Source: Sphingobacteriaceae bacterium
Lineage (GTDB): Bacteria; Bacteroidota; Bacteroidia; Sphingobacteriales; Sphingobacteriaceae
DNA: 64,000 bases
Direction of reading: 5' to 3'
Assembly (NCBI GenBank): GCA_947458875.1
Contig: CANGZD010000002.1
Span: 1-64,000, forward strand
A program made the position numbers and the translations under genes. This document shows, piece after piece, positions 50,203 to 53,119 of the stretch (within the stretch, counting starts at the first letter, position 1; the number at the start of each line of letters is the position of its first letter). The notes under the pieces are model-generated. The model ran no database searches. It saw only the letters and a program-made list of their open reading frames with translations, and was not told the origin of the DNA.

Positions 50203-50814
50203 GTGGATAAAATCAAGGTATTAGAAAATTATCTCCCCCCTGCATCGGCTCCGCTCATTGCTCGCTGGATCGATCATTTTCAGTGCGATTTTAAAATTTC
50301 CAAGGCCCGTAATACCAAGTATGGCGATTACCGCCCTCCGCATGCCGGACAGGGACACCGTATCTCCATTAATTATGATCTAAATCCGTATGCTTTTCTG
50401 GTGACTACTGTTCACGAATTTGCTCATTTGTTAACCTGGAATGAGCATCAGCGCAAAGCCAAGCCTCATGGTACAGAATGGAAAGCCAATTTTAAGCGGA
50501 TGATGCGGCCTTTTTTTGAGCAGGAGGTTTTTCCAATGGATATAAAAAAAGCCATCATACGGTATTTAGAAAACCCTGCCGCCAGCAGCTGCACCGATCA
50601 CAATCTTTTCAAAACTTTAAAAAAGTACGACGAAACCCCGGATCATTTGGTTTTGGTAGAATCTCTGCCATTGGGTAGTGTATTTAAAATGAAAGACGGA
50701 CGGGTGTTCAGGAAAGAGGCCAAGATCAGGAAGCGTTTTCGTTGCACAGAGCTGGCCAGTGGCCGACTGTATCTGTTTAATCCGCTCGCAGAGGTGGAAT
50801 TGCTCCCTGCTTAA
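50203..50814 (+). CDS. SprT-like zinc metalloprotease domain protein
   Basis: 203 aa; HEFAHLLTWNEHQRKAKPHGTEWKANFK. Confidence 0.85.
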   Translation: MDKIKVLENYLPPASAPLIARWIDHFQCDFKISKARNTKYGDYRPPHAGQGHRISINYDLNPYAFLVTTVHEFAHLLTWNEHQRKAKPHGTEWKANFKRMMRPFFEQEVFPMDIKKAIIRYLENPAASSCTDHNLFKTLKKYDETPDHLVLVESLPLGSVFKMKDGRVFRKEAKIRKRFRCTELASGRLYLFNPLAEVELLPA

Positions 50815-50860
50815 CGTCTTTCATGCTGCATGTAATGAGACATCTTGTTGGATGGTATAA

Positions 50861-50891
50861 AGATCCTTCGCTTTGCTCAGTATGACAATGA
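50861..50891. repeat. Short sequence resembling the widespread GATCCTTCGCTnnGCTCAGnATGACA dispersed element
   Basis: agatccttcgctttgctcagtatgacaatga; reverse translation gives HCHTEQSEGSL, like the recurring spurious HPERSEGS/VILSEAKDL peptides. Confidence 0.6.
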
Positions 50892-50900
50892 TTTAGTGAA

Positions 50901-51130
50901 GTGCTAATTGTTGTGCATACGTCCAACTTTGCCTTGGATAAGTCTAATTGCGTCGTGGTAAACTGCTCTTGCGCCGTGATGAAGTCTTACTGCGTCGTGG
51001 TAAACTGCTCTTGCGCCGTGATGAAGTGCAACTTTGTCTTGGATAAGTCTTGCTGCGTCGTGGTGAAGTTCTATTGCGCTGTGGTAAAGTGCTCTTGCGC
51101 CATGGTGAGGTCTAACTGCGCCGTGCATAC
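50901..51130. repeat. Degenerate tandem array of 21-nt units (about 11 copies)
   Basis: Units such as gtctaattgcgtcgtggtaaa / ctgctcttgcgccgtgatgaa / gtcttactgcgtcgtggtaaa; two near-cassette repeats of 42 nt; open in frame on both strands. Confidence 0.93.
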
Positions 51131-51142
51131 GAGCGTATGGGC

Positions 51143-53119
51143 TTAGTAGGCCAGTAACTTTTGCATGCAATCTGCTAAACGGCTTTTCGCCAAAAACCGA
51201 TCTTCCAGGGCTTTACTCATCGGGATGGCGGTATCGAGGCTGGCGCAGCGCATCACCGGGGCATCCAGGCTTTCGAAAGCATGTTCGGCAATATAAGCAC
51301 TCAGTTCCGCTCCAAAACCATTGGTGAGCGTGTCTTCATGCAGGATGATTACTCTCCCCGTTTTGTGTACAGTCTGCAGTACCGCTCCGGTATCCCAGGG
51401 TTGCAGGCTTCTTAAATCGAGCAGATCGGCACTTATTTCAGGATGTTGGTCTAAATATTCCATTGCCCAGTGTACGCCCAGTCCGTAAGTGATGATGCTC
51501 ACTTGTTCTCCTTTTCTGAGCAAACGTGCTTTCCCGATTTCGGTAGTGTAGTAATCGTCGAAAATAGGTTCTGAAATACCCCGGTATAAGAATTTATGCT
51601 CAAAATATAATACCGGATTAGGATCTTCAATGGCCGAAAGTAATAAGCCTTTGGCATCGGAAGGGAAGGCGGGGTACACTACTTTTAAACCTGGGGTTTT
51701 GGTGAACCAGGCCTCGTTACTTTGTGAGTGGAAGGGACCGGCACCGGTGCCTGCACCCGTAGGCATGCGCACGACTACATCGGCTTGCTGGCCCCAACGG
51801 TAATGTGTTTTTGCGAGGTTATTGACGATCTGGTTGAATCCGCAGGTAACGAAATCGGCAAACTGCATCTCCATGATGGCCTTGTACCCGTTAATTGAGA
51901 GGCCTAAAGCTGCGCCTACAATGGCCGATTCGCAAATGGGCGTATTCCGTACCCGTTCTTTTCCAAATTCTTCTACAAAGCCCTGTGTAATTTTAAAGGC
52001 ACCGCCATATTCGGCAATATCTTGCCCCATGATCACCAATTCAGGGAACTTTTGCATGCCTGCTCGTAGCCCATCGCTGATGGCATCTATGTAACGTTTC
52101 TCGGTTTGAGTTCCACTAGCATGGATAACGGGTGCCGTTCTGGGTGCGTACATGTCATCAAGTTCCAATTTTTCATCCGGCGCCACATCGGGCATGGCAA
52201 AAACAGCTTCTACATCCTGTTCTATTTCTTGTTTAAATTGAGCTTTTATGGATGCAATCTCGTGTTCGTCGATGATGCATTCTTCTAAAAGATATGCTTC
52301 GAAGTTTTTCAGCGGGTCTTTTTGCTCCCACAGATCAAACAGTTCCTGGGGGACGTATTTGGTGCCGGAGGCTTCTTCGTGACCACGCATGCGGAAGGTT
52401 TTACATTCTACTAATACCGGCCTTGGGTTTTTCCGAAGGTCTTCGGCTAGTTCATGGATGGTATGGTACACTTCAAGTATATTGTTTCCATCAATCAGGC
52501 GCCCTTCCATGCCGTAGCCCTTGGCCCTATCGACGAGGTTTTCGCAACGGTATTGCTCATTGGTAGGGGTAGATAGGCCGTAGCCATTGTTTTCTATGAG
52601 GAAAATGACCGGTAAATCCCATACGGCCGCTACATTGAGTGCCTCATGAAAATCGCCTTCGCTGGTAGCGCCTTCGCCGGTATAAACTAAGGTTACTTTT
52701 TCTTCTTTTCGGAGTTTATCGGCCAGGGCAATGCCATCTGCCAGGGCCATTTGAGGGCCGAGGTGGGAGATCATGCCAATAATCTTATGGTCTTGCGTGC
52801 CGAAATGGAAGGAGCGGTCGCGGCCTTTGGTGAAACCGGCAGCCTTACCTTGCCATTGTGCCATCAAGCGGCTAAGCGGGATATCACGAGAGGTAAATAC
52901 ACCGAGGTTGCGGTGCATAGGCAAGATGTATTCATCTTTATGGAGCGCAAGCGTACTGCCTACCGCAATGGCTTCCTGACCAATTCCAGAAAACCATTTG
53001 CCAATTCTTCCCTGACGCAAGAGGATGAGCATTTTTTCCTCAATCATGCGTGGTTTGAGGAGCTGCTTGTAGAATTGCAGCAGTTGCTGGTCGTCTAAGT
53101 GCTTGCGGTCGAACTGCAT
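51143..53119 (-). CDS. Alpha-ketoacid dehydrogenase E1, fused alpha+beta subunits
   Basis: 658 aa; TPP motif YTGEGATSEGDFHEALNVAAVWDLPVIFLIENNGYGLST followed by E1-beta half MGQDIAEYGGAFKIT. Confidence 0.93.
   Translation of the reverse strand: MQFDRKHLDDQQLLQFYKQLLKPRMIEEKMLILLRQGRIGKWFSGIGQEAIAVGSTLALHKDEYILPMHRNLGVFTSRDIPLSRLMAQWQGKAAGFTKGRDRSFHFGTQDHKIIGMISHLGPQMALADGIALADKLRKEEKVTLVYTGEGATSEGDFHEALNVAAVWDLPVIFLIENNGYGLSTPTNEQYRCENLVDRAKGYGMEGRLIDGNNILEVYHTIHELAEDLRKNPRPVLVECKTFRMRGHEEASGTKYVPQELFDLWEQKDPLKNFEAYLLEECIIDEHEIASIKAQFKQEIEQDVEAVFAMPDVAPDEKLELDDMYAPRTAPVIHASGTQTEKRYIDAISDGLRAGMQKFPELVIMGQDIAEYGGAFKITQGFVEEFGKERVRNTPICESAIVGAALGLSINGYKAIMEMQFADFVTCGFNQIVNNLAKTHYRWGQQADVVVRMPTGAGTGAGPFHSQSNEAWFTKTPGLKVVYPAFPSDAKGLLLSAIEDPNPVLYFEHKFLYRGISEPIFDDYYTTEIGKARLLRKGEQVSIITYGLGVHWAMEYLDQHPEISADLLDLRSLQPWDTGAVLQTVHKTGRVIILHEDTLTNGFGAELSAYIAEHAFESLDAPVMRCASLDTAIPMSKALEDRFLAKSRLADCMQKLLAY

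Follow-up and report, generated by a model that had tools for sequence, protein, structure and literature searches.

A family of non-coding intergenic arrays with a fixed 21-bp unit in a genus of freshwater Sphingobacteriales

Introduction

Intergenic minisatellites are generally regarded as neutral typing markers. Those of the VNTR/MIRU type, familiar from MLVA typing, consist of tandem intergenic units, show presence or absence and change by whole units, and the length of the unit usually varies from locus to locus. Plasmid iterons are direct repeats of about 20 - 22 bp that are spaced by helical turns and bound by protein. The BrickBuilt minisatellite/MITE of Porphyromonas gingivalis has a 23-nt unit with one consensus, together with a leader and a tail that have terminal inverted repeats (PMC4596501). 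A survey of satellites in prokaryotes indicated that dispersal or transposition of non-coding satellites is rare, and dispersed non-coding satellite families with long repeats are known from Leptospira interrogans and Methanocella conradii (PMC6749651).

The DNA considered here (the window) is the first 64,000 nt of contig CANGZD010000002.1 of a Sphingobacteriaceae bacterium, whose assembly is 1.74 Mb in 43 contigs and 88% complete. An initial annotation of the letters alone drew attention to a 21-nt tandem array between two genes, and knew of no named family that covered it; the analysis reported here likewise found none.

The window array and its surroundings

The array occupies positions 50921-51130 (+ strand) and is made up of ten full 21-nt units with the consensus GTcctacTGCGcCGTGGTnAA, in perfect register and with zero indels. 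About 11 units had originally been claimed; the array itself is real, and the exact count is ten full units plus one degenerate unit at the left edge (50900-50920, +). This edge unit ends in GTGCATAC, as does the last unit, in keeping with the earlier remark that the same ending occurs at both ends, and the right edge, GAGCGTATGGGC (51131-51142, +), lies just past the last full unit. The array obtained TRF scores of 106, 188 and 195 at periods of 21, 42 and 63, with the other rows for the window far lower, and a lag scan of five shuffles of the window found no array. Self-identity was 0.68 at lag 42 compared to 0.60 at lag 21, because sub-types alternate to give a 42-nt super-period, and the two-unit cassette originally described is therefore genuine. 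The scattered differences between units were also borne out, the mean pairwise difference being 0.35. With its units of a length between about 10 and 100 nt lying head to tail inside a spacer, the array is an intergenic minisatellite.

The neighbouring genes are convergent, as had been stated. On the left is a SprT-like gene (PF10263; 50203-50814, +) and on the right a gene of the 2-oxoacid dehydrogenase E1 type with Pfam matches to E1_dh and Transketolase (51143-53119, -), both directed toward the array, and the stop of the E1 gene is 12 nt past the last full unit. The sequence GAGCGTATG also terminates two arrays in a related genome (G001 C16 and G001 C18), and GGGCTTA is also found just before the E1 stop in another (G003). 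There was no inverted repeat of at least 12 nt within 50800-51200 and no promoter-like site in the region, and a single weak terminator-like match was located beyond the array, which led to rejection of a terminator or promoter within it. A TCCTTCGACAAGCTCAGGATGACA-type dispersed repeat is present in one copy at 50859-50893 (+), and repeats of this type abut several arrays in relatives. More generally, high-copy dispersed intergenic repeats (the TCCTTCGACAAGCTCAGGATGACA type and a GGCAGAACGATGCTTCTGCC...GGCCCGCCGTTCTGCCGGGCC type) cluster near arrays, as in the window and in G001 C12:1-7163, C16 and C17.

A number of other origins were considered and rejected. An origin in a plasmid or phage was discarded since plasmid and phage collections gave no match and viral contigs gave none, a heptanucleotide origin since the array has no lag-7 signal (0.21), and intrinsic curvature since a 10-11-nt periodicity is lacking. 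The array is not a CRISPR array, as its units abut with no spacers between them, nor does it resemble the repeat RNA of a type III toxin-antitoxin system, in which the repeats stand directly upstream of a toxin nuclease gene, since its neighbours are the SprT-like and E1 genes, both directed at it.

Distribution within and beyond the genus

Six genomes of the genus were compared (G000 to G005, G000 being that of the window), all of them 1.0 - 1.8 Mb assemblies of freshwater Sphingobacteriales. Across these there are at least 22 intergenic non-coding arrays with a period of 21 or 42 nt, namely five in G000, eight in G001, one in G002, two in G003, five in G004 (two of them short) and one in G005, all lower bounds as the genomes were sampled in stretches. 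The five arrays in the window's own genome came from 764 kb sampled and all have the 21/42-nt period. Four of them, at C1:36.75k, C5:30.6k, C6:0.2k and C8:9.1k, were found by lag scan alone, run without a sequence model, and such scans also yielded arrays at C1:98k of G003 and at C2:92k of G004; others came from profile searches. The arrays found by lag scan have the same period and sequences other than the window type. Profile comparison distinguished the window type, a related ACTGYGSC type, a GGATGGCTGTTGCACCGCTTC type and a TGCGAA type, with a few arrays unplaced, and in one G004 array the window type turns into another type with the register kept. That the sequences differ but share a 21-base step suggests that the spacing itself matters.

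Among 100 relatives, matches to the window array DNA were confined to genomes of its own genus, a three-unit profile gave zero matches in 145 other genomes of the family, and searches for two array classes yielded nothing outside the genus. When a degenerate two-unit pattern was searched against a GTDB-based collection only two lake MAGs matched, a 'Sphingobacteriales bacterium' from Lac Pavin and a 'Sphingobacterium thalpophilum', and the same pattern gave no match in viral contigs. The latter MAG (L121; CAMBMM010000001.1), a 1.7-Mb lake genome, groups with the small-genome genus and its title looks doubtful. No comparable non-coding array was found in approximately 740 kb sampled from other genera, where the closest case had a coherence of 0.51 and consisted of short A+T-rich motifs. 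The initial annotation would have been given up had the repeat been absent from all relatives and untranscribed, or devoid of conserved positions; relatives carry it, and columns are conserved. The window array belongs to a family of non-coding intergenic minisatellites that extends across the genus and in which the unit is fixed at 21 bp.

Inheritance, gain and loss at orthologous loci

In G003 the SprT/E1 spacer contains a degenerate relative of the window array that has the same right edge and a +1 insertion. The site is empty in G005, where the 3' ends of the two genes overlap, and in G001 an array of another class lies downstream of SprT beside a different neighbouring gene. The spacer between the M1-peptidase and amidase genes harbours arrays in G000, G005 and G003, whereas in G001 and G004 it measures no more than about 50 bp; the G000 and G005 arrays differ by one unit. 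Arrays are found upstream of umuD in G000 and G004 and are absent there in the other species read. There are two umuD homologues in G003 (C5:318-746 and C4:110263-110703) and one in each of the other matching genomes. The empty site in G005 indicates that arrays come and go, and this and the one-unit M1 difference make the number of units variable among related genomes. The suggestion that the array might be a mobile intergenic repeat therefore stands as regards dispersal through the genus, but a number of arrays have been passed on at fixed loci.

Genes near arrays were called from ORF length alone. On this basis convergent genes flank several arrays, and the majority of arrays are 3' of at least one gene, but no consistent strand or orientation of arrays relative to genes was found. 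A crude ORF picker scored the pairs around G001 C16 and C9a as divergent, but the ORF list for C16 shows a codirectional gene instead. In three species a conserved hairpin (AAGCCTCCCCGA...TCGGAGAGGCTTT) adjoins the M1/amidase array (L200:9034-9061 and the matching place in L225 and L226) and is probably a terminator common to both convergent genes. Between arrays and differing predicted lipoprotein genes in G001 and G004 (L006, L005, L008) there is a conserved stretch (TTTGACAGTTTGAGTCT...TTTTTGTTTGG), possibly a shared promoter region. A family of proteins of about 245 aa, one member of which has a weak Pfam match to DUF6261, has a 21-nt array 25 - 115 bp 3' of the gene in all four copies examined, from three genomes (L193:10905-11630, -; L164:1979-2746, -; L105:117-899, +; L106:7842-8573, +), a biased sample in that the copies came to notice because they flank arrays.

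Conservation of register and of unit columns

An important consideration is how the arrays diverge once they are inherited. When the M1 spacers of G000 and G005 were aligned there were 126 substitutions in 336 array positions and no indel over 16 units, followed by a 21-nt gap corresponding to one unit, and core identity was 66% at one offset compared to approximately 25 - 30% at neighbouring offsets. Ordinary orthologous spacers had 10 gaps to 91 substitutions between G000 and G005 and 158 to 950 between G000 and G003, or about one indel per 6 - 9 substitutions overall, and relative to these the M1 arrays are deficient in indels (Fisher p = 2e-4 and 2e-8) in a test that set a single orthologous pair of arrays against a small baseline. 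A wrap-around alignment of 20 arrays covering 5250 nt and 1501 differences from consensus was nearly all without internal indels, a count that is biased as register was how the arrays were found.

The M1 substitutions are unevenly spread over the 21 columns of the unit (permutation p = 2e-4) and are rarest in the columns conserved within arrays (Spearman 0.51, p = 0.018), but two independent checks in which column conservation was taken from other arrays were both non-significant. The M1 arrays have diverged by 31% (gapped) or 37.5% (ungapped), against 44% at four-fold sites of the neighbouring amidase gene; divergence is near the synonymous rate and any constraint on sequence is therefore weak. 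Units inside single arrays differ by up to 58%, and no internal 10-11-nt periodicity was found in the arrays. In the M1 arrays, then, spacing has been conserved more strictly than sequence.

Interpretation and rival explanations

Our preferred reading, held tentatively and drawn from sequence comparison, is that register is constrained in this family of minisatellites, whose units are most likely phased DNA sites for a putative protein. Such a DNA-binding protein is proposed because it explains most simply how the step can be conserved when there is no reading frame to preserve. The 21-nt period would be kept since each unit would be a site lying two helical turns of DNA from the next, and the putative protein, of a nucleoid or regulatory type, would run along a single face of the spacer DNA. 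Point changes would be tolerated at non-contact positions, a 1-nt indel would put later sites out of phase and be removed, and slippage or unequal exchange would add new units 21 or 42 nt at a time. The reading draws on the period common to several classes, inheritance at orthologous loci, gain or loss of exactly one unit, a register maintained as the sequence drifts and the mild column constraint. Against it are the arrays missing from many orthologous sites (SprT/E1 in G005; M1 in G001 and G004), the +1 insertion in the G003 SprT array and the lack of a 10-11-nt periodicity, and one protein would need a loose specificity because the sequence classes differ. A protein-binding array, one of the possibilities raised at the outset, fits the conserved register and constrained columns best and falls short of proof. 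A broader version, which we consider rather unlikely, is a chromosomal site-array system in which selection would hold the 21-bp step as unit sequence turns over, so that arrays of unrelated sequence would share a role; they might, for instance, be tracks on which a nucleoid or regulatory protein assembles, one that responds to spacing more than to sequence.

The reading as phased protein sites is close in probability to a neutral one, itself quite possible, in which a replication or repair habit of the genus duplicates and deletes 21-nt steps and the arrays, dispersed together with other intergenic repeats, drift, the register lasting since slippage, which acts on entire units, eliminates small indels or exceeds them in number. 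Presence and absence at orthologous loci, including the empty site, the position of the G001 arrays among other dispersed repeats, the 42-nt super-periods (as a sign of ongoing unit exchange), the near-synonymous divergence and the inconsistent gene orientation are all consistent with neutrality. However, units that differ by up to 58% imply that exchange is too slow to erase substitutions, though indels are missing, the substitutions are uneven by column, and the 21-nt step would have no known mechanism. It is improbable that the arrays are, or recently were, short translated genes with 7-residue repeats. In its favour, a unit of 21 nt is seven codons, one or more frames are open in many arrays (a 134-aa ORF in G003, 102-127-aa ORFs in G000) and several classes have a frame in which a Cys recurs. 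The frames reported as open on both strands of the window array do exist as strings, a Cys-rich ORF of 81 aa with a GTG start (50901-51146, +) and a His-rich ORF of 88 aa with a TTG start that runs into the E1 gene (50904-51170, -). Both span the array and were judged not to be genes. Open frames in many arrays are explained by repetition of a stop-free unit, but in four arrays (G000 C1, G000 C8, G005 C7 and G003 SprT) every one of the six frames is interrupted by stops and, because these arrays still keep 21 nt, a reading frame does not explain the period. Variability in the Cys frame of the window array is 0.22, 0.43 and 0.39 by codon position, highest at position 2, start codons are inconsistent, and a single-sequence structure model of the 81-aa ORF had a mean pLDDT of 42. 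A protein-coding heptad repeat was therefore rejected, the expressed peptide that had been envisaged was not supported, and a coding role of the arrays is unlikely.

An active RNA transcribed from the array, such as a repeat-binding scaffold or a means of end formation between convergent genes, is if anything less probable than a peptide. The arrays between convergent genes and the 3' position of most would suit it, but folding of the window array, which had been recommended as a check, was no better than that of shuffles on either strand (z = -0.96 on +, z = +2.38 on -), an Rfam search of it gave no match, the M1 locus has its own separate conserved terminator hairpin, and orientation to genes is inconsistent; a structured RNA was rejected on the fold and Rfam results. 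The least probable explanation is a MITE-like mobile element of the BrickBuilt type, with the repeat array between a leader and a tail. Three arrays in relatives (G001 C16, G001 C18 and G004 C1:721k) have flanks in common on either side, as such an element would, but the window array has no surrounding inverted repeat, most other loci lack shared flanks and the tail repeats are found by themselves at many sites.

Comparison with known systems

A repeat family of a small, compact genome that keeps one exact period while its sequences and loci differ would count as direct evidence for possible selection on repeat spacing, and the genus provides a simple test case in its aligned orthologous arrays with and without units and its empty site. 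The nearest described kind is BrickBuilt of P. gingivalis, which is similarly found in the Bacteroidetes and is intergenic, with short imperfect units without spacers, many loci, variable unit number and some shared flanks (PMC4596501). The arrays described here differ in having a unit of exactly 21 rather than 23 nt, several classes of one period, no inverted repeats at the window locus, shared flanks at only three loci, all in relatives, and orthologous loci conserved between species. As with the satellites of L. interrogans and M. conradii, related non-coding satellites occur at several loci per genome, but here the unit is fixed at 21 nt over differing sequences. Unlike VNTR/MIRU loci, the period is 21 or 42 nt at every locus. 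The arrays are like plasmid iterons in being direct repeats of about 20 - 22 bp with helical-turn spacing, with binding here only putative, but no replication initiator gene is present at the window locus and the arrays are chromosomal, occupy many loci and are far more degenerate. In general kind the 21-nt family is a minisatellite, set apart by a period that is constant over its sequence classes.
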